A DNA stretch of 64,000 bases from Citrus sinensis. Taxonomy: Eukaryota > Streptophyta > Magnoliopsida > Sapindales > Rutaceae. The stretch's first letter is position 1; the number at the start of each line of letters is the position of its first letter. Below are positions 12,603-63,035 of the stretch, piece by piece. Both the position numbers and the translations under genes were made by a program. The DNA lies in assembly GCF_022201045.2 (NCBI RefSeq), contig NC_068563.1, positions 3,100,001-3,164,000 of the forward strand, in the 5' to 3' direction. The notes below the pieces were generated by a model. That model was given only the letters and a program-made list of their open reading frames with translations, was not told where the DNA came from and searched no databases.

Positions 12603-13711
12603 TTAGTTAATTAAGTAATTAGAATGTTTGTTTGTTTCCTTGTTTTTTTTTTTAAAAAAAAAAATTAGTTAATTACAGTGTTTAATCAATTAATTCAGCC
12701 AATTATTTGATTGTATCTGTAAAGAAGAGATAAGATCATCAATTTGGAGATCGATTATGTGAACAATAAATATATCTCTTACTAACTCAGTTCAACATCG
12801 GTCCCAATTATTTTATTGATTTGATTTTCCAAAATTTTATCCGGAGGTGCTGCTGCTGAACTGAGGATTGGCTTGCTGATTAGTGACTACCGAGAACTGA
12901 CGGGGGGTAAAGAAGAAGGATTAAAAGTGGGACCCACTAAGTATCCACGCTGGCTAAATCCCACGTTCTTGAGAAAAGAGCACTCAGCACTGGATGTAAA
13001 GGATCAAGTGGAGAGCGACACGTTGCCCACTAACTGCTGGGGAGCTGGTAACTCCAGTGTAACATGTGCGTCTCAGTAAAATAGTAATAATGATTAAACT
13101 ATTTTTTTTTTATCATGTTTATCACGTGCTTTAATTTAAGACATGTGGGAACCGATACATATATAAAGTAGCGTAATGGCAAAAGCAAAACGCAGACTCA
13201 TGAAAACGTGAGAGAAGGGAGGGAGAGAGAGATAAAAGAAGCAAAAAGACTAAAAGTTTTTTTTTAAAAAAAAAAGTAATTTAGTGGATAATCTTGTTTA
13301 TTGCTGCATTCACTGGACCAAACCCGTACGGCCTTCGCATTATTAAATTATGCTAAGCTTAGCTTAGCTTGGCTGGTTTAATAATTGATGCAATTACCAC
13401 ATGGTTTAATTATCTGTTAATATGAAACGAACCAAAAGGCATCACCAATCTTGTCGCGTCAAGTCAGCGTTTTGATTCTTTTTTCCGTCCATCGTATATT
13501 TGCTTAGAGCATCAATTAAAGGTTCAGTAACGTCATACAATATTATTATTATTTTAATATCAAACATATGATCATCTCAATCGCATTCCAAATTCACATG
13601 CAACTTATTGAAATCCCACAAGCCGCCCACCACATTCTTTCGGAAATCTAATAACATTACTCTTATGATAAATTAATTTTTTATTTTAATATTTTATAAT
13701 ATAATTTTTTA
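12603..13711. other. ERF109 3' flank and intergenic DNA
   Basis: Holds the presumed 3' UTR, then DNA with no recognised gene. Minor features are a short AGCTTA repeat near 13353-13370, a GA-rich tract near 13212-13235, and a CACGTG core near 13123. A 68-codon open frame at 12873-13079 has no recognisable motif. Confidence 0.35.
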
Positions 13712-14245
13712 AGGTAAAAACTCGTTTAGTCCTTCTATTTTAAGATTAGTATCTATTTAGTCCCTATATTTTTAAAAATATCTCGAAACATCCATAACGT
13801 TAAAGTATTGATACCCCTACCATTACTTTTTATTTTTTTTTGGCTTACTTTTACAATATTATCTTTTTATAATTTTTTATTTGGATATTAATAAAAAGAA
13901 AATAATTATATTATCAATTTAATCCTAAAAAATAAAAATAAAAAACTATATTAATTTTTAATTATAAAAAATTGTATGCAAACTACCAAGTGTGCAAATG
14001 GTGCTTGTAAAAAAAATAATATAATTTTTTTAAGGATTAAATTAGTAATTTAATTATTTTATTTTTATTAATGTCTAAAAAAATTATTATAAAAGGGTAA
14101 TATTGTAAACGTAAGCCAAAGAAAATAAAAAGTAATGGTATGGGTATCAATACTTTAACGGCAGGGATATTTTAAGGTATTTTAAAAAATAAAGGCACTA
14201 AATAGATACTAATCTTAAAAACATGAACTAAATGAGCTTTTATCT
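13712..14245. mobile_element. Long-arm foldback MITE, MULE type
   Basis: Almost the whole element is an inverted repeat. The left end AGGTAAAAACTCGTTTAGT pairs with AGATAAAAGCTCATTTAGT from the right end. Pairing continues through AAGATTAGTATCTATTTAGT, TTAAAGTATTGATACCC and GGCTTAC(T/G)TTTACAATATTA, giving arms of about 200-250 bp around a short centre. The exact 10-bp duplication TAATTTTTTA lies at 13702-13711 and 14246-14255. Arm length and duplication size fit Mutator-like MITEs. No coding capacity. Transcripts would form a long hairpin. Confidence 0.82.
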
Positions 14246-14542
14246 TAATTTTTTATACTAAAATAATATCTTTTGCAATAAATAATATAACTCCTCCCAC
14301 GTCACTACTTCGTTCGTCATCAATATGTCATTTGCCAATTATTGGCGTTCGTTGAAGTTAAAATCCATTAATGCCAGAATCCTTGTTTCTTGATTAATGC
14401 AGCTCTACATCATTTCCAACGACTAATTTTTTTTTTTTTAACCTTGGAAACGGGCCGGGGATTGAATTTTTAACTATGATTAAATAGTGGTAACGAGTGT
14501 GTGCAGTAATGTTCTAATAAGAAATTTCATATTTTCTAATAA

Positions 14543-48868: not shown

Positions 48869-49234
48869 AGAGATGCTGTAGCAATATAAAACCTGCAACT
48901 ATGGTGAGTTAAAGCAAACGAAGATCGAAAGAAGAACAAGAAGCAGGGGAAGCTACTTGCAAAGCAATATTGACATTTGGTTTTACTTCCATTTTTTTTT
49001 ACTCTTTTTTTTTTTTTTTTAATATTATTATTACATAACAACAAAGCTGCTTCTGGATAGAGCTGAAGTAGAGAAGAATTTGCCTGTCTTGTTCTGTACA
49101 AATGTTTTGCAGCTGAAGAACTTTCATGAACTAGATGAATTGACCGTTGTAATTTATTTATTCTATTTTTCAACAACTATTTATGATTTTGCCCCTTTTC
49201 TTACACACACATATATATATATATATCAGATGCT
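48869..49234. other. 3' flank of the DUF1645-like gene
   Basis: Probable 3' UTR, with T-runs near 48991-49020 and a short (TA)n run at about 49209-49226 that marks the left edge of the duplicated ATG2 block. Confidence 0.4.
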
Positions 49235-51015
49235 GCACCAACCCCTCTCCCTCTTCATCAAATGTTAAGAAGAGAGTTAAAATGACACTCATCAATTGAC
49301 AGTCTTGATTGGAAACAAACTACAATGCACTTTCTCATTTAACATTTTTATCAAGATCAGTGCTGACTCAATAAAACATCCAGGATCTTCTCTTTTCATG
49401 AATTGCCATGTCACCATTCATCAGATGCGAAGAGAAAAGCATTTTAAGAAAAAAGGGGGGAAAAAAATTGAAGAGAGACGGGGCATCCCTCACCATTATT
49501 CAAAGGTTATTGGACATAAAGATTGTATCAACAATCAAGTACTTGAAGCTTCCGGACATTCTGCACTTTCCGCTAAGAAAATATCAATCAACCATCCCAT
49601 TCATTCACAATGATTTCTACTTAATTCTACAATTTAGCTGAAAAGCACCACCATTGCCCACAATTAACTCATGCCATAATTTGGCTAGTCACAAGGGTCG
49701 AATTAACCAATGCAACATGCACTAAACACTTTGAATATATCATACATCTCACAAGTCAGAAACCTTCAAAGAGATGTGAGGTATTGAATTTTTTACAACG
49801 AACAGGATTTATCTACAAACATGACAGAGGCTTTAAAAGAATACGATATACAACTTTTCTAAGTAAATCGAGTGGTCGCTCCAAATACCTGTACATCTGG
49901 CGTGGTTTTGTGGAGGATTTACGGCATTGTTTTAAATGAGTTTTCAGTAGACCCCAAACACCGTTAACAATATCCGTCCAAATTAATATTAATTCCTTAT
50001 TTTTCAATTACGGAAATGTAACTAGTTATATAAATATTCTATATGTCAAATTCAAAAGAAAAGAAAAATAATATTTTGATAAAATACAACAAAAATTTAT
50101 GTAAACCAGAGATTGTAGGGTTTTCACACATCATCATCCATTAGAACTAAATGTTGGGGAAGAACTATACTAATCCCAAAACCGAAAAATTTCAAGTCAT
50201 GTGCTCTAAAACACCAGACAGAAACAAAACATTACTCCTCCTCCTGGTAGATACATGTATTTTAAATAAACTGCAAAAGCTTTCAAAAGAGAGACTATAA
50301 TTCGCAGAAAAGGTTCAAATTTTCATGGGGGCTCCTGCATTGGCCTCACGTAGTATTCACCCTTCGAGTGCAATGATAGCAAAAGGTAAGTTATGATTTT
50401 TGCGGAGTAGATGAAGGTTGATGATATCGTAATCATTGACTGCATCATTAATTCCATTCTCGTGACCAAGTGGGACCCAAATATCTCTCCATGGATTCTC
50501 TTTTACGCTCAGGATCCAGGCTACAATACAAGCATAATTAAAACAGTCAATTTTTTTCTTTTAAGTTAGGATGTTCTTGTGATTGCAATTGATGAACTAA
50601 AAAAACTTACCTAATTCTGAGGCCACGAAGAGCATAATGCACAGCACTTGCGCAAGTATAAGCCGGAGCTATAGCAGCTGCAGGAACTCCCTGTACAACA
50701 GTTGCCAAAGCAGATCCAGGGCTGGCTCCACTCTGGTACATTTTCAGGGGTATTTGTTTGAACTAGAGCAGAAGCAGATCTCACGAGGCCATCACTGAGA
50801 CTCTCACAAGCCTATCAAAACTCTGCAGATCAGTACCTTATCTATAACAAATACAGTACTCAAAATTTTATTTGAGTAAACAAGATAAGGAACATTAGCA
50901 GCTTATATAAAAAAAGGAGATAATGTGACTTGGGACTCTTATCATCTTACTTTTGAAGCATCTACAATCATAAGTATAGTACAGACAACATTGATATATA
51001 TAAACATTTGAAAAT
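49235..51015. repeat. Segmental duplication copy A of the ATG2 3' region
   Basis: Matches 60955-63035 (copy B) in the same orientation with many substitutions and small indels. Landmarks include CTCTTCATCAA(A/C)TGTTAAGA, CATGAATTGCCAT, AATATCAATCAACCATC(C/T)CA, AGAGGTTGTAGGGTTTTC in B against AGATTGTAGGGTTTTC in A, and the ATG2 exons. Homology stops near 51015, where RAD54-derived sequence begins. The non-genic part holds no other feature. Confidence 0.82.
50448..50811 (-). pseudogene. Duplicate of the last two ATG2 exons, broken
   Basis: Exon equivalents at 50611-50811 and 50448-50520. The last exon is intact (LDPERKRESMERYLGPTWSR, stop). The penultimate one reads [19 protein letters not shown], then loses frame: it is 201 nt against 197 nt in the real gene, a 4-base gain after the Val-Gln-Thr codons. 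All more upstream exons are missing because the copy ends near 51015. Without them it cannot make ATG2. It is clearly a genomic copy, since intron and splice sites are retained. Confidence 0.88.
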
Positions 51016-54061: not shown

Positions 54062-56248
54062 CTAGAAGTTCCAACTCTCCATATTAATTTCTTTCACAAG
54101 GTTCCGGACCAAGATATACCAGGTAGCATCATTAGGTACAAAGCCATTTGCTACTCCTTTATGAAGAATTAAAAAAGCATCATCAAAAAGACCCTCCTTG
54201 AAGTGCCAACTAATCAAAGTGTTATATGTAACAGCATCTGGATAGATTCCTTCAGCTTGTAGCTTATCAAAAAGATTTAAAGCCTCTCGAATGCAACCCA
54301 TCTTGCACAAACCATTTATCAAGCTGTTATAAGTAACTATATCTGGTGTCAAACCTCGATGAATCATATCCCTTAGAAACTCCAGTGCTGTATTTGCTTT
54401 CCGCGTTCTACAGAGCCCATTAATTAATATATTGCACGAGATACTACTAGGTTTAATTCCCTTTCTCATCATTTCTTCAAACAGCCCCAAACCTTTATCA
54501 ACGGCCCCTGCATTGCACAGTGCTTTTATTAGACCATTGTAAGTAATTTCATCAAGAGGACATCCCCTAAACAACATATCGTTTACAAGCTTATGTGCTT
54601 CATGGAGAGATCCTCTTCTTAGAAAAGCATGAATTAGTGTGTTGTAAGTTACTGTGTTGGCAGTTACACCCTCCAATAACATATCCTGATAAAGACCCAA
54701 AGCTTCTTCAATACGATCACCCTTGCACAGGCCAGATATTATAGAATTAAATGTATATATGTCACGCTTGCAGCCTTTGCTAGGCATTTCACCAAAAATT
54801 TCCATTGCCTCAAGGATCTTACCAGCACTACACAGAGCATGTATAAGGCAATTATATCCAACTGTATTCAAACTAAGCCCCTTGGACAACATCTCATTTA
54901 CGATTATATTAGCTTTTTCTAGTTGGCCTTCCTTGCAGAACCCGTCAACTAATATCGTGTAGGTGACGATGTTAGGCTCACAACCCTTCACTGCCATCGC
55001 ATTAACCAATTCAAGAGCTGAACCTAAACGCCTCTGCTTACACAGTCCATGAATCAATATGTTAAAAGTAAACACATCAGGGTTACAGCCAACGCTTAAC
55101 ATGCTATCATAAAAAATAGCCTTGGCTTCATCAAAACGTCCACTTATGACATACCCGTTAATCACGGTGTTGAGCAGCACAACATTTGCAGATGGTATCT
55201 TGTTCAACAATGCCCTTGCTTCATCAACTCGCCCAGTTCTACACAACCCATGCATCAAAACTCCATATGTTATATCATCAGGGGTGAATCCTCGGACAAG
55301 CATCCGGTCAACCAATTTTGCTGCCTCATGAATCCGGTTGACCTTGCACAGGCCATGGATAACATCATTGAAGGTCTGAACATCAGATGTGCAACCCATC
55401 AGAATCATTTCTTCCAAAAGCATTAGTGCTTCACTCACTCTATTACTCTTGGACAATGCATGTATCAAAGTCTGGTAAACCACAGAATTCGGCACACACC
55501 CATGTTTGGTCATATCCCTTAGTAGGGAGCATGCAGAATCCACTTCATTAACCATACAGAGTGCTTTCATCACAACCCCAAAAGTATAAACAGTCGGTGA
55601 AATACCCTTACTCAACATATCATAAAACAAATTTGGCGCAACCTTATGACAATTACCAGCCACTAAAACATCCAAGACAACATTATAAGACCTAAAAGTA
55701 GGTTGACAACCATAAACACTCTTCATATCCAATAACAACCGAGTAGCTTGCCCTGGCACTCCCCCTCTTCCGTAATATTTCATAATCAAAATGAAAAGGG
55801 ACTCCCTGAAAATAATACCCTCTTCTTTCATTTGCAGTAATACACTGTCTATAACTTTAAACTCCTTATTGGCACCAAGTTTATCTATGAACACATAGTA
55901 CACATCAAAAGTATGACAATAGCCCTCCTGGGAACCTGCCCAAGTGAAAAGCTCCATGGATGTGTCCACGTCAAGTGGCAATCGAAGTAATTTACATAGC
56001 TGAAAAGGTGTAATTTTATGGAGAGACTTTCTAAGCTCGTTGAGATCAAATGGTTTGAGCAATCTCTCCCACTCATTTTCAGATTCTGAGTCATTGCTTT
56101 GACAGATACTTCTAGCTGTACAATTTCTATAATCAATAGTACAACTGTTGCTAAACCCAAATGAGAAAAATACAAAAGAAGGTCTTTTGAAGAGAGATTT
56201 AAAGAGGGTTTTGCTCATATGTGAAGTGAGCTTTGGACTTTTTAACAT
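54062..56248 (-). CDS. MTL1: P-class PPR protein, At5g64320/MTL1-like (mitochondrial)
   Basis: Single exon, 728 aa. The N-terminus (MLKSPKLTSHMSKTLFKSLF) is basic and hydroxyl-rich, like a mitochondrial presequence; Met11 (56218) is an alternative start. After the conserved NEWERLLKPFDLNELRKSLH and ITPFQLCKLLRLPLDVDTSM come about 15-16 tandem 35-residue PPR motifs (for example VPNSVVYQTLIHALSKSNRV, ANTVTYNTLIHAFLRRG, PDIVTYNSLINGLCKMG). No E or DYW domain follows. PPR tracts bind organelle RNA by sequence. The Arabidopsis protein it most resembles, as I remember MTL1, is needed for nad7 mRNA translation and splicing. Its arrival between the two ATG2 copies is not explained by the syntenic block. 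Confidence 0.88.
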   Translation of the reverse strand: MLKSPKLTSHMSKTLFKSLFKRPSFVFFSFGFSNSCTIDYRNCTARSICQSNDSESENEWERLLKPFDLNELRKSLHKITPFQLCKLLRLPLDVDTSMELFTWAGSQEGYCHTFDVYYVFIDKLGANKEFKVIDSVLLQMKEEGIIFRESLFILIMKYYGRGGVPGQATRLLLDMKSVYGCQPTFRSYNVVLDVLVAGNCHKVAPNLFYDMLSKGISPTVYTFGVVMKALCMVNEVDSACSLLRDMTKHGCVPNSVVYQTLIHALSKSNRVSEALMLLEEMILMGCTSDVQTFNDVIHGLCKVNRIHEAAKLVDRMLVRGFTPDDITYGVLMHGLCRTGRVDEARALLNKIPSANVVLLNTVINGYVISGRFDEAKAIFYDSMLSVGCNPDVFTFNILIHGLCKQRRLGSALELVNAMAVKGCEPNIVTYTILVDGFCKEGQLEKANIIVNEMLSKGLSLNTVGYNCLIHALCSAGKILEAMEIFGEMPSKGCKRDIYTFNSIISGLCKGDRIEEALGLYQDMLLEGVTANTVTYNTLIHAFLRRGSLHEAHKLVNDMLFRGCPLDEITYNGLIKALCNAGAVDKGLGLFEEMMRKGIKPSSISCNILINGLCRTRKANTALEFLRDMIHRGLTPDIVTYNSLINGLCKMGCIREALNLFDKLQAEGIYPDAVTYNTLISWHFKEGLFDDAFLILHKGVANGFVPNDATWYILVRNLVKEINMESWNF

Positions 56249-56965
56249 GGAGTGTGTCAGTCAATATGTAGCCGAAGAGATAAGAAAGAAGACGGAAACT
56301 AACCATTCAACGACCATGCCTCTCCAGACAATATGCTGCGTAATTATATTCTGCAACAAAAGAATAATACTGTACTTATATTATACCAAAAAGAAACTTC
56401 ACAAAAGAAAATTACAAGAGGAACGTTCATGATATCATCTTATTTCCGGCGGATGGAGGATGAGACCGGTTAGACAAACGGCGATGGTATAACGGTCATT
56501 AGAGACGGTGGGCCTTTTTTTCTTTTTTCTTTTTTTTTCGAGAGAAAATTGAGATTAAGGAAATACTGTTGAGAGGAAAACACAAGGGAGGGAGCGTCTG
56601 GAGTTACGCCATGTTGGTGGCTTGTTGTTGTGTGTGCATGTGTGTGGTAATAAAATGTGTTCACCTATGACTTTAAGACATGTTAGGCCTCGCTTGATTT
56701 GCTCACGTGCCACGTTGGAAAAGAAAAAGGGCAAAAAGCAAAAAATAAAAAATAAGAGGATGCTGGTGTCAGCCCCGGGTCAAACTCCGAACTTGAAAAA
56801 ACGACGTTGTTTTAAGGACCAATTTTTTGTTAGGATACATGAGCCGCTTTCTTCAGGCAACGATGTCGTTTTCAGGACCATTTTTTGGTTTTACTCCATT
56901 CAATAGGTTAGAGGCAAAGAAAACATGAATAAGGGCATGACGCTTTAATTCAATAAACAAAAACA
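56249..56965. other. 5' flank of the PPR gene, intergenic
   Basis: Presumed minus-strand promoter and leader. A T-run near 56513-56538 and C/G-poor DNA follow. No other gene is recognised up to the Pack-MULE-like element. Confidence 0.35.
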
Positions 56966-57210
56966 ATAAAAATTGGGAAATTTACACAAATAACCAAAAA
57001 AAATTTGTTATTTTCACAACTAACCCCTCAACTTTTTTCCTATCAACATTAGTCAATAATCATCCCTAGTGCCGAAAATGCCCCTCCCATAACATTATCT
57101 TTTCGTCCTCTCCTTCCTCTCTCTCTCTCTCACCGCCGAATTCACTACAAGATCTACTTGATGCATTATCAAGATCATCATTTGTATATGCATCTGACTC
57201 TGGCGTTGTT

Positions 57211-58407
57211 TTATTTTAGGTGGTGTTTTATTTTAGATTTTTTACCAAATAATTGTAGAGTGATTTGAGCATGATTTGCTGCAGCTGCTGCTTGCAGAAG
57301 CCGAGTAAACTCTTGCTTCTCAGTCAAATCAACCTCATCACCATCCACAGCCTTCCACTCAAAATTCCAAACCAAATTAGCCACAAAATACTCTAAATAA
57401 AGCATAGCCAAACCAAAACCGGGACAGATCCTCCTGCCAGCACCAAATGGCATCATCTTAATTTCCCTACCCCCCGTTATGTCAAAATCTTGATCATGAT
57501 CATTCAAAAACCTCTCGAGCTTAAACGCCATCGGATCCTCCCAAACTTTCGGATCCCAACCCATGTCGGCCACCATGAAATTCACACTCCCGTCCTTTGG
57601 TATCACGTACTTATCATCAAGCACGAAATCCTCTGTCACGGCATGTGGCAACACGAAATGCCTAGGCGGGTGCCTCCTCAGTCCCTCTAAAATCACTGCT
57701 TTCAGATACGGCATCTCCTGCAACTCCTCATTTTTCACCTCTTCATTTTCACCAACAACTCCTCTGATTTCCGTATAAACCTTCTCTTGAACATGCGGGT
57801 GCTTCACCAGATTGGCCATGATCCACTGTAGCACCGTGGAGGTACTTTCAGTGCCCGTGCTGAGAAATTCTGAACACAAACTCACAATTTCCTCTTCGCT
57901 AAGCTTTCTTTTCTCTTCATGAAGCTGCAAATCTAACAGAGTATCCACATACGATAACACATACTCTTCCTTGTTGACACCGAGGCTCTCTTCTTCTTTC
58001 ATCTTCTTTCTTGCTCTTATCAAAGTAACCAATACGTTTTCTTGATCTCTACGCACCTGCAAGAACTGTATCCACTTCTTAAGAAAAACAATTTTTGTTA
58101 ATCTTGGCCAGAAATTCAGTATATTGAACTTGCCAACAGCCAACAGCAGTCTGCGCTGAACGTTCTCAATTTTTTTTATTTGGGATTCATCAAGCTTGTC
58201 TCCGAAACACATGAGCACCAACAAGCAAAACATGGCGTATAGAAAATGATCAAGAAGACGAACGGGGACAGGGCGGTCCACATTGAAATCAGTTTCAATC
58301 TCACATTCACCAGCTAGAAGGGGACGAAGAAGTAGAGGTGCCATGCAAGCCGCCACTGTTGAAGTGCTCATTCGATTTTGATTTTTAGAAGAAGCAACAG
58401 CTTGCAT
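57211..58407 (-). pseudogene. 5'-truncated CYP89A-type cytochrome P450 captured by the transposon
   Basis: P450 homology begins at about 58275 ([20 protein letters not shown]) and runs to the stop at 57211 without interruption. Seen are ARKKMKEEE, the I-helix [15 protein letters not shown], ExxR in [20 protein letters not shown], the PERF-region variant KLERFLND, and the haem loop [17 protein letters not shown] with its Cys ligand. The membrane anchor, proline hinge and first ~150 residues of a ~510-residue CYP89A are absent. Upstream codons to Met at 58407 look random. The C-terminus ([18 protein letters not shown]) also departs from the family. The long open frame (355 homologous codons) suggests recent capture or some constraint, but the protein should lack a complete fold and anchor. 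CYP89A9 acts in chlorophyll breakdown; that role should not be assumed here. Confidence 0.85.
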
Positions 58408-58416
58408 TATCATAAA

Positions 58417-58634
58417 TAGGTGCGACAGGCTGCCTGTCGCACCTACTCTTGGTGCGACAGGTGCCTGTCGCACGAAATCATGGTGCGACAGGCAGCCTGT
58501 CGCACGAAATCTTGGTGCGACAGGCTGCCTGTCGCACCTATTCTTGGTGCGACAGGTGCCTGTCGCACCTATTCTTGGTGCGACAGGCAGCCTGTCGCAC
58601 CTACTCTTGGTGCGACAGGCAGCCTGTCGCACCT
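58417..58634. repeat. Array of seven tandem palindromes, period 31-32 bp
   Basis: Units at 58419-58443, 58451-58474, 58482-58506, 58514-58538, 58546-58569, 58577-58601 and 58609-58633. Each is GGTGCGACAGGC facing GCCTGTCGCACC around a single A or T, or GGTGCGACAGG facing CCTGTCGCACC around TG. Units 2 and 3 end in CACG rather than CACC, losing the outermost base pair. Spacers are 7-8 bp and alike (TACTCTT, GAAATCTT, TATTCTT). Centres run T, TG, A, T, TG, A, A. Open frames through the array on both strands are artefacts of its 3-fold-indivisible period. It lies inside the Pack-MULE-like element, just upstream of the P450 fragment. Confidence 0.93.
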
Positions 58635-58982
58635 GTTTGTAATCGCACTAAATCAAGTTCGCAAGTTAAGAAAATATCTCTTACTGCTCGGTGATACGTA
58701 TTAGTGTTGGATCTGGATGGATTATGCTGTATTTGATCGGAGTTCATTTTTACCATTCGCCGTTGCCGTTGCCGTTTGTCGTCGCTGATGATAATTCAAG
58801 AGTACAAGACTATGTTTCGTTTGATCAAGGGGGAGAAGAAAAGTTGCTTTTGGTTTGTAAACAAGGGTAATTTGGGAAGAAAACATTGTGTTTGGCTAAT
58901 GTTGATAGAAAAAAGTTTGAATGGCTCATTGTAAAAATTACAAAAATTTTTAGGTTATTTTTGTACATTTCCCATAAAAATT

Positions 58983-60904
58983 AAAAAAGAATCTCTAACC
59001 AAATAATCAAAGAAGGTAAAACCAGCAACCTAGTTGAGAAGGATAGACACGAAAAAAAAGACTAATAAATAAATAAAAAAGACAAAACCTAAATCAGCCA
59101 AAGATTGAAGCATTACATCAGGTGCATAAGTGGCCGCCACTTTGTGAGTGGTTGTGGCTATCGCGTGATGGCTGTCGATGGTAGTGACAACAGCAGAGGG
59201 TACACATGATGTCTGATTTGTGGGTGATTTCAGAAGAATTGTGGCTGGAGATTTTGATCGATAACGGCGGATTTGTGGGGAGAATTTTGGCTAGAGATCT
59301 CCATCGATAATGGAAAGGAGAAAAACTTTGCAAATGGTGCGTTTTCGGCATAAGGCAAACGGTGCGTTTTTGACTTAATAAAATGGTGCATTAGTTTGGA
59401 GTTTGACCCGGTACAAATAGCTTTTTACCTAGTGGATACCTGATGCAGATGAAATATTGTAGTCAGATGGGAAAGCACTCATTTTTAATAATCAGAATCT
59501 TTTGGTGTAAAATATATACAATAAAAAACTTTTATTTTAGAGTGATTCTGTACACACTATTAATTAAAAAAAAAGATTATGATATTAGTTTGTACTACTT
59601 ATAAATAAAAATACATTTCATATTATATAAGTTATAGTTTTTTTTAGATTCCATCTTAAAAAATTTGCCTCCATATAGTAATAATTATTTGTATATTCCC
59701 AACAAAATATGTTGTGTCACATTAAATGTTTAAGATAAAATAAAATAAAAATTCAAAATTGTTTAGGACTAAGATTTATTCTTTAGAGGTTAGACTTTTA
59801 TGATTAATTTACATATTCCCAACACTATATAGATTTATGTACTAATTTTTTCAAAACATGTCTATCTCTTTTACAATATCTGTACATTAGATTTGACATG
59901 CTGCATTAACTAATTACTAACGAAGTGCATATTTTACCTTTATATCACTTGCACTAAATACAACTAAGTTAAAATAATAATTTTTATAATTACATTCTAT
60001 TAAATTATACCCTCCTTACAGTAATAAATTAGTTTGGTACCCAAAAAAAGATATGTTGAGGGGGCTTGGTTCAAGTTGCAACTAGATGTACAATCGTAAT
60101 CTTTTAAAGTGAGAATATGATTTTGTTATTACGGCAAGGGCGCAGATTCGAGTTACAACTTGATGTATAATCATTATCATTTAGAGTAAGAATATATTTC
60201 GGTTGTTGAGAGCACATGCTTGAATGACAATTTAAGACTGAACTTTTTATCTCCCTTCTAATTTGGTAGGAACCAATAATCTCACAGATACATGATATCA
60301 AATATTAACAGGTATATAAAGCCGACTATTGGAGAAACAATGTCACCTGAAACTGATGTACGCTCGTCTCAGTAACTAATAAATTTTAAGTTGGAACAAC
60401 TATGAGTGCAGGAGACTTTGGACTTACCGTTCTGTACATCTCAAAAATTGCACACAGGCAGTAAAATAACGTCCCCTTGCTCATGATTTCTTAGACTATG
60501 TGACCTTGTACTATGTTAATTGACATTGTAATTTTGAACAAATATGTTAAATATAATAATAGTGGGGTTATTTAAACTTACTAAATTTCTCTCTGCACTC
60601 ATCTAAGAAAATTTATTAATTATAAGAATTAAAAATCTCCAAACTGCACTTTATTCATTTCCTCCCTGCTTCCCTATTTGTGTTTTCTCTTTACAAACAG
60701 AATTTGTTACAGATCTATGGAAAAGTAAAAAACGACTCACACAGAAAAACATCATTTCATTGTGAATTTGTGATTGCTGGTGTCGTTTTCATTCAAATTT
60801 TTATCATCTACGAAAGGCTAAACTCACTTGATTTGGCCACTGGTAGGGCTGAATTTTAGGGTCAGTTTCATCACCATTGTAATCTATATGTTCCTTTTTT
60901 CAAT

Positions 60905-60954: not shown

Positions 60955-60958
<4 letters not shown>

Positions 60959-63035
60959 TACAATAATCCCTCTTCCTCTTCATCAACTGTTAAGAAAAGA
61001 GAGAAAAATTACACTAATCAATTGACATTCTTCGTTGACAACAAGCTGCCGCACTTTTCTCAGTTAACATTTCATCAAGATCAGTCCAGAATCAATAGAA
61101 CATCCAAGACCTTCGCTTCTCATGAATTGCCATATCACACCACTCATTAGATATGGACAAAAAGGCCTTTGAAGAAACCCCACCCCCCTAAAAAAAAATA
61201 AAAATTCAGGGCATCACCATTCAAAAGTTATTGGATGAATATTGTACCAGCACTCAAATACTTCAAGCTTTCTGACACACTGCATTTTCCGCTAAGAATA
61301 TATCAATCAACCATCTCATTCCTTCACAATAATCTCTCCTTAAATCTACAATTAAGCTGAAAAGCATCACTATTGCCAACCATTACATTGTGCCTCGTTT
61401 AGCTCAAACGGGTCTAATTAACCAATGCAACGTTACACTGAAATTGGTTATAATTCCATAGAGACGATCATAAACGCTTTGAATAAATTATACATCTCAC
61501 AAGCCAGAAACCTTACAGTGATATAAGATATTGAATTATTTACAACAAAGAGGGCTTATATACATCGTGACTGAGGCATTAAAAGAATATAATGTACAAA
61601 CTAACGTACTAAGTGAATCGGGTAACTATAATTATCAAACTCACTCGTGTGGGTAAAATTTGTAAGCTGCACCAGTTATGTACATTTTGCACAAAATTCT
61701 GTCAATTCTGCGCTAAGGATATTTACATTTTGTACAAAAATTCAGTCAGTTCTGATGCTAAGAATCTGATTGGTGATTCCAATACCTGTACACCTGCAAG
61801 CAGATTATATGTTGAACATCATTTTTTAAAAATGTTAAAAAGGCGATTTTTAAATAAGTCCAGTAGACAAGCCAAAACCTCAGAGCCCATTAAGAATATC
61901 TGTCAAAATTAATAATAATCCCTTAATTTGCAACTGCAGGAATATAACCCAGTTGAAGAATTATTCAACATGCAAGTTAAAAAGAAAAGAAAATTAATAT
62001 TTGATGAAAGATGAAACCATGTATTGTGTACAACAAAAAACTAAGTAAACTAGAGGTTGTAGGGTTTTCAGACATCATCATCCATCAAAACTAAATGTTG
62101 GAGCTATATTAATACAAAACCAAAAAAAATTAAGTCATACGTACTAAAACAACAGACAGCAGAAACAAAACATTACTCCTCTTCCTAGTAGATATATGTA
62201 TTTAAATTAACTTCAAAAGCCTGTGAAACAGCAAGTAATTTTCAGAAATGTTTTAACTTACGTGTTTCATGGGGCCTCCAGTGCGTGGAGTGCTCTTAGA
62301 AATCTCCTTTAGCCGGTGGCAACTTGCCATAGTCATAACGCATCATTTAACACTCGGAAGTGCAATGATAGCAACAGGTAGGTTACGAAATGCCAGAGTA
62401 GACGAAGGTTGATGATATCATAATTATTGACTGAACCATTAATCCCCTCCTCGTGACTGAGTGGGACCCAAATATTTCTCCATAGATTCTTTTTTACGCT
62501 CAGGATCCAGACTGCAATACAAGCATAATTACAATAGTTAATTTCTCCTTTGATGTTAGGATGTTATTATGATTGCAATTTATGAACTAAAATACTGACC
62601 TAATTTGGATGCCAAGAAGAGCATAATGCATGTCATTATGATTGCAATTGATGAACTGAAAAAAAACTAAAAATACTGACCTATTTCGAATCCCAAGAAA
62701 AGTATAATGAGCAGCACTTGCACAAGCAGAGGCCGGAGCTATAGCAGCTGCAGGAACTCCCCGTACAGCAGTTGCCAAAGCAGATCCAGCACTGGCTCCA
62801 CGTTGGTACTTTTTCAAGGGTGTCTGAACTAGAGCAGATGCAGATCTCCCCAGTCCATCACTGAGACTCTCATAAGCCTATAAAAACTATGAAGATTATT
62901 ACCTTTTCTAGAACTATTACACTGCTCAAAATTTTATTTGATATACTGGAACTTGGGACTCTAATCATCTTATATTTGCAGTATCTACACGCATGGTATA
63001 TTACAAACAATATCAAAGATCTATATAAACATCTC
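60955..63035. repeat. Segmental duplication copy B (parent) of the ATG2 3' region
   Basis: Direct-orientation counterpart of 49235-51015, about 12 kb away. It carries the intact ATG2 terminal exons, so it is probably the source. The part left of 62439 is the ATG2 3' UTR and flank with no other recognised gene. Confidence 0.8.

Follow-up and report, generated by a model that had tools for sequence, protein, structure and literature searches.

How a row of near-perfect palindromes comes to lie beside captured host-gene fragments inside a plant transposon, and what it might do there, is the question raised by a short array in the 64-kb stretch of plant DNA analysed here, the whole of which we call the window. 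The features on which our answer draws are collected in Table 1.

Table 1. Features of the array, of the element that carries it and of the captured cargo (window coordinates).
Feature	Position	Strand	Details
Target site duplication, left copy	56966-56974	.	ATAAAAATT; identical 9-mers outside the inverted ends
Left terminal inverted repeat	56975-57056	+	starts GGGAAATTTACACAAATAACC
Stop-free frame through array, RhoGAP-like and P450 pieces	57211-58632	-	frame only
Possible RhoGAP-like continuation past the P450 piece	57265-57303	-	13 residues
Cytochrome P450 captured fragment	57313-58257	-	Pfam p450, profile 141-448/462, E 1.3e-68
RhoGAP-like captured fragment	58321-58419	-	Pfam RhoGAP, profile 114-146/148, E 1.5e-4
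Seven-palindrome array	58419-58633		units 58419-58443, 58451-58474, 58482-58506, 58514-58538, 58546-58569, 58577-58601, 58609-58633
Best stretch like the rice MIR439 precursor model (RF01902)	58430-58527	-	48.1 bits vs gathering 90
Possible decayed or founder half-unit	58643-58655	+	TCGCACTAAATCA vs TCGCACGAAATCA of the array
Right terminal inverted repeat	58892-58973	-	starts (minus strand) GGGAAATGTACAAAAATAACC
Target site duplication, right copy	58974-58982	.	ATAAAAATT

Structure of the palindrome array

The original prediction of seven tandem palindromes with a period of 31-32 bp was confirmed: seven units lie between 58419 and 58633, their starts 31 or 32 bp apart (32, 31, 32, 32, 31 and 32 bp in order), and each has the form GGTGCGACAGG-(CTG/TG/CAG)-CCTGTCGCACC. 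The arms, which had been described as identical, are very nearly so, agreeing over 11 bp at 152 of 154 positions; units 2 and 3 have one mismatch each, at the outermost right-arm base, beside a spacer of the second of two types. A single type of spacer, as first supposed, does not describe the array. The spacers, all of 7 bp (in order TACTCTT, AAATCAT, AAATCTT, TATTCTT, TATTCTT and TACTCTT), comprise TA[C/T]TCTT in four of six cases and AAATC[A/T]T in the remaining two. Deviating positions amount to 2 of 154 in the arms as against 7 of 42 in the spacers (Fisher 3.4e-4, for positions that are not independent of one another).

The centres, which read CTG, TG, CAG, CTG, TG, CAG and CAG in order, vary as had been noticed, not by plain alternation but in a partial three-unit pattern. 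Three of four comparisons at a lag of three units agree, a result equalled or bettered by 10 of the 210 possible orders, so that the pattern taken alone is only mildly unusual. Tandem Repeats Finder (TRF) scores for the array are 334 at a period of 32, 334 at 63 and 369 at 95, the last being the highest. Inversion of the centres, offered earlier as one source of their variation, is not needed, because one A/T change together with duplication of a triplet accounts for them; neither of the two TG centres has been flipped to CA. Recent amplification, named as the other source, may have taken place.

With up to two mismatches, the arm 12-mer GGTGCGACAGGC has 18 matches in the window, of which 14 fall within the array and four outside the element, and hence none in either terminal inverted repeat; shuffled controls gave a mean of 0.85, and none of 100 reached 18. 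In regard to a possible satellite nature, the repeat occupies, in the 64 kb of this window alone, a single place with seven units. Other perfect inverted repeats (arms of at least 10 bp, centre of at most 4) occur at five places in the window, two of these being simple runs, one of AT and one of T/A. The GC content of the DNA under study is low (36%), which together with the genes present suggests a flowering plant, probably a eudicot. Observed/expected CpG stands at 0.79 for the array and at 0.53 for the window, and the parts of the element to the left and right of the array give 0.67 and 1.2, respectively; as a gauge of age, CpG decay is uninformative here, the sites being too few.

To the right of the array, a possible half-unit was matched by 8 of 2000 shuffles when the first 60 bp were considered and by 17 of 500 for the whole right flank; the same procedure gave no half-unit signal in the left flank (1680/2000 and 365/500). 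Because four flank stretches were tested, this half-unit is only suggestive.

The Pack-MULE and its captured cargo

The array had been placed within a MULE-type transposon, and this assignment stands on terminal inverted repeats, a 9-bp target site duplication and captured gene pieces. The element spans 56975-58973 (1,999 bp). Its left end and the reverse complement of its right end are 80.5% identical over 82 bp, and the flanking 9-mers match perfectly, the base-frequency product of the 9-mer being 3.3e-5. Mutator-like elements produce target site duplications of about 9 bp (9-11 bp), and we take the GGGAAA at the start of the ends to be a feature familiar from plant MULEs. The only open reading frame of at least 120 aa within the element matches P450 and RhoGAP alone, in a scan that included few shorter frames. 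Judged by its ends, target site duplication and cargo, the element is an ordinary Pack-MULE; no second copy of it was found in the 64-kb window. The array it carries is one-sided, separated from the right terminal inverted repeat by 258 bp of element DNA (58634-58891).

The P450 piece, presumably a CYP89A, is without roughly the N-terminal third of its domain (about the first 140 profile positions). The RhoGAP-like piece scores 22.1 bits, slightly below the Pfam cut-off of 24.5, and its only match among solved structures is Rho GTPase-activating protein 20 (E 0.12). The two fragments share a frame. On the minus strand of 57211-58419, the P450 fragment is in frame with, and perhaps nested in, the RhoGAP-like fragment; 12 residues (57265-57300) of the possible continuation beyond the P450 piece resemble, as we assume, plant REN1-type RhoGAPs, and a Pfam scan of the 30 residues from that point onward gave no match. 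If the P450 piece is indeed nested in frame within a captured RhoGAP, the element therefore took its cargo in steps, suggesting successive captures during which the frame was kept open. At the edge of this cargo, the array adjoins the RhoGAP-like piece to within one codon.

A coding function for the array itself was considered and rejected. Stop-free frames cross it once on the minus strand and in all three frames of the plus strand, which is unremarkable because the 31/32 period puts the stop present in the spacer into different frames, and the minus frame lacks an ATG both ahead of the array and within it, the first one in frame being at 58413, past it. A match of the translated array to Pfam 4PPT_N (E 0.0088) lies under the cut-off and was taken as repeat noise.

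Several further structures in the window are recorded here in their own right. A diverged direct duplication (49232-50875 and 60957-62941, 73-81% identical in DNA pieces) flanks both a PPR-like ORF, named by eye (54062-56248), and the Pack-MULE. One conserved frame on the minus strand putatively resembles the C-terminus of plant ATG2. Outside the Pack-MULE, 95% matching inverted 19-mers (CCGGGTCAAACTCCGAACT) at 56775-56793 and 59393-59411 may mark the termini of an older element that encloses it, and by eye no target duplication matches them. The 581-bp stretch at 13689-14269, which is 78% identical to its own reverse complement, is probably an old element of foldback or MITE-like type, and the dispersed inverted repeat pairs at 41054-41277/53729-53949 (84%) and 41332-41447/51166-51280 (90%) are probably transposon remnants.

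Comparison with known elements and repeats

The rice Pack-MULEs described in the accessible text of PMC8903248 resemble the present element in having terminal inverted repeats, a 9-bp target site duplication and captured gene fragments, and in that, among the frames scanned here, no transposase domain was found; our element differs from them in having a P450 beside or within a RhoGAP-like piece and in the palindrome array that borders its captured DNA. A second point of reference is provided by Tm1 (PMC3169594), Tetris (PMC4079207), and MuTAnT and FARE1 (PMC4486113), foldback elements that their authors assign to Mutator. According to the available portions of these reports, they share with our element the placement in Mutator and the possession of tandem repeats or modular foldback ends; however, their repeats or modules build both terminal inverted repeats, whereas the array found here is single, internal and made of units that are themselves palindromic. 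A foldback element by structure was therefore rejected, as the array lies 258 bp inside the right terminal inverted repeat and not at both ends.

Transposon-borne minisatellites, as presented in the accessible parts of PMC9659126 and of a report on a Porphyromonas MITE (PMC4596501), are likewise short tandem arrays within transposons, but differ from the present array, in which every unit is itself palindromic; the main text of PMC4596501 does not contain the string "palindrom". Among literature surveyed by title and the start of the abstract, in a collection whose coverage leaves most subscription journals outside, no tandem palindromes in a Pack-MULE were described, and matches to the arm strings included, among those listed, no plant-repeat paper as judged by title. 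The pattern TGCGACAGG-N(1-3)-CCTGTCGCA was found 0 times in a set of viral contigs and in 9 stretches of a set of genome contigs, neither collection being meant for plants; the 9 stretches, each a single palindrome, came from bacteria of different genera and are regarded as noise, because in 257 billion bases chance alone should, by our own estimate, produce about 11.

Predicted folding

For the 237 bases around the array that served as folding input, the predicted RNA energies are -197.0 kcal/mol (plus strand) and -185.3 kcal/mol (minus strand), in both cases mainly as one long hairpin, with one unit of the minus strand forming a hairpin of its own. When the plus strand was shuffled 200 times by mononucleotides, the mean was -81.8 and the lowest value -100.8 kcal/mol. 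A form with seven separate hairpins, evaluated for the plus strand only, has an energy of -139.1 kcal/mol. The string of RNA hairpins that had been anticipated is thus upheld as to the formation of hairpins, by prediction, but not as to their arrangement, the predicted optimum being one long hairpin; small hairpins could be favoured instead if folding proceeds along with transcription. The long hairpin is likewise favoured when either single strand is folded with DNA parameters (-119.6 and -116.0). On the strength of these models, a transcript of either strand is predicted to form mostly a single long interrupted hairpin, which could plausibly serve as a substrate for Dicer-like enzymes.

Resemblance to rice MIR439

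At gathering scores no Rfam family was reached anywhere in the window, MIR439 included. Loose-threshold scans of the array returned 27 rows in one case and, in another, 19 rows representing 14 families, the top score belonging to MIR807 (64.3 bits, E 7.8e-13), yet with only 30% identical letters; mir-3937 had a similar E-value. Because covariance scores reward any long hairpin, as these two families illustrate, only comparison letter by letter was taken to count. Such comparison covered 7 of the 14 families (mir-552, MIR6297, rliI, isrG, mir-2032, mir-341 and mir-4524 were left out), and MIR807, mir-3937, MIR5387, MIR7125, MIR4371 and MIR1144, at 30-54% identity, were set aside as matches of structure only. 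For MIR439, aligned letters are identical at 66 of 91 positions on the minus strand and at 59 of 87 on the plus strand. Since the score lies below the cut-off (48.1 vs 90 bits), we speak of resemblance, not of membership.

This resemblance extends to architecture. The MIR439 consensus, CCTGTCGAAC-TGACGCA-GTTCGACATG-TA-CCTGTCGAAC-TGTGGTT-GTTCGACAGG-TACC-CCTGTCGAAC-CGCGGTT-GTTCGACAGG, is itself a row of palindromes, with three CCTGTCGAAC arms, three of GTTCGACAGG type (one ending in TG) and 7-nt spacers, and its core arm GTTCGACAGG agrees with GTGCGACAGG of the array at 9 of 10 positions. Both are near-perfect palindrome rows with short centres and spacers, modelled as a single long hairpin. They differ in the sequences of spacers and centres, and when the core arms are aligned, the spacers measure 9 bp in the array vs 7 in MIR439. 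Among arrays of the same layout with permuted arms, 3 of 4000 matched the consensus as well (best 76 vs 64 for the real array); corrected for the post hoc choice among 14 families, the chance is nearer 1 in 100.

MIR439 was chosen as a match after the fact; the reported Mutator origin of miR439 is an independent point. The accessible parts of two reports place that origin in Mutator-type transposons, as in the present case: miR439 is said to be derived from MuDR elements across Oryza (PMC5594537), and Osa-miR439 is classed under the Mutator MITE superfamily (PMC10004981). The two may share one underlying analysis. Among the literature matches listed for MIR439 arm and mature strings, only PMC2292181 was relevant by title; a table in the part available gives the mature form of osa-miR439a-j as UGUCGAACCGCGGUUGUUCGA, with counts of 4, 1 and 0. 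Counts in that table are low, and rice MIR439 may be an siRNA locus and not a true miRNA. In the consensus, the mature 21-mer consists of one spacer and parts of both neighbouring arms. Neither it nor its reverse complement is present in the window, the best ungapped match in the array being 12/21, and the equivalent place in the array would read TGTCGCACCTATTCTTGGTGCGA or kin. The early suggestion that the array is a source of small RNAs gains indirect support through the likeness to rice MIR439, with its reported Mutator origin.

Origin and possible role of the array

We favour, at a probability of about one half, the view that the array is a MIR439-like tandem-palindrome module of a Pack-MULE, capable of giving rise to double-stranded RNA, with arms kept alike by template switching. 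Such an array would have started as a palindromic seed in the subterminal DNA of the element and lengthened through slippage or through template switching. The arms would stay alike because any of the fourteen can be templated by any of the rest, whether directly or in inverted orientation, and spacers can be templated only from spacers. A precedent comes from yeast, where, according to the accessible text of PMC3820800, imperfect palindromes become perfect by mutation, a change ascribed to template switching. Read-through transcription of the array would yield the long hairpin, which may be cut by Dicer-like enzymes into small RNAs; these in turn could be directed against the element and related elements and, if transcripts run through the cargo, perhaps also against the parent genes of the P450 and RhoGAP fragments.

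The principal alternative, which we regard as a real possibility though short of an even chance, is that of a neutral palindromic minisatellite, in which a palindrome that had arisen by chance at the capture junction was multiplied through slippage and through template switching driven by hairpins, without serving any role. This explanation is simple and stays strong. It agrees with the small number of units and their confinement to one place in the window, with a three-unit, 95-bp pattern of the sort expected from tandem duplication, with what may be a decayed half-unit bordering the array on the right, and with the capacity of transposons to seed tandem repeats (PMC9659126, in its available portion). 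It is less easily reconciled with arms that are less variable than the spacers, or with the agreement of MIR439 arms at 9/10 core positions, in a similar arrangement and in a family reported, in the parts of those papers at hand, from the same superfamily.

A wider proposal, which we think rather unlikely, is that palindromes with GT(G/T)CGACAGG arms form an old cis module in the Mutator-like elements of plants, maintained between distant plants through binding of transposase or host factors, of which rice MIR439 represents one lineage. The annotated miRNA family would therefore be a transposon control array, and the hairpin RNA of MIR439 a by-product or second function. The narrower notion that the arms of the present array serve a MULE transposase or some host factor as binding sites, their number raised for affinity as proposed for the repeats of foldback elements, with small RNAs as a by-product, is in our judgement unlikely. 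Arm sequence is kept while spacers and centres change, both within the array and in comparison with rice MIR439, and the tandem repeats at the ends of Galileo hold extra transposase binding sites, according to the accessible text of PMC4079207. On the other hand, the array lies on one side only, well inside the right terminal inverted repeat (258 bp), the terminal repeats themselves are without the 12-bp arm, and the array adjoins captured gene DNA. That the array pre-existed in captured host DNA, for example in a RhoGAP intron, and was carried along as cargo is very doubtful, for although it abuts the RhoGAP-like piece to within one codon, the possible half-unit lies on the opposite, element side and the resemblance to MIR439 points towards MULE DNA.

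For the interpretation as a MIR439-like module of the element, a motif can be defined for plant genomes, namely GTKCGACAGG-N(2-4)-CCTGTCGMAC in tandem. Should the resemblance to MIR439 hold, Mutator-type elements of rice and of the present plant would have a palindromic arm in common, and an odd transposon repeat would be linked to a named small-RNA locus. The link would also suggest a way in which gene-capturing transposons arrive at double-stranded RNA beside the host sequences that they have captured.
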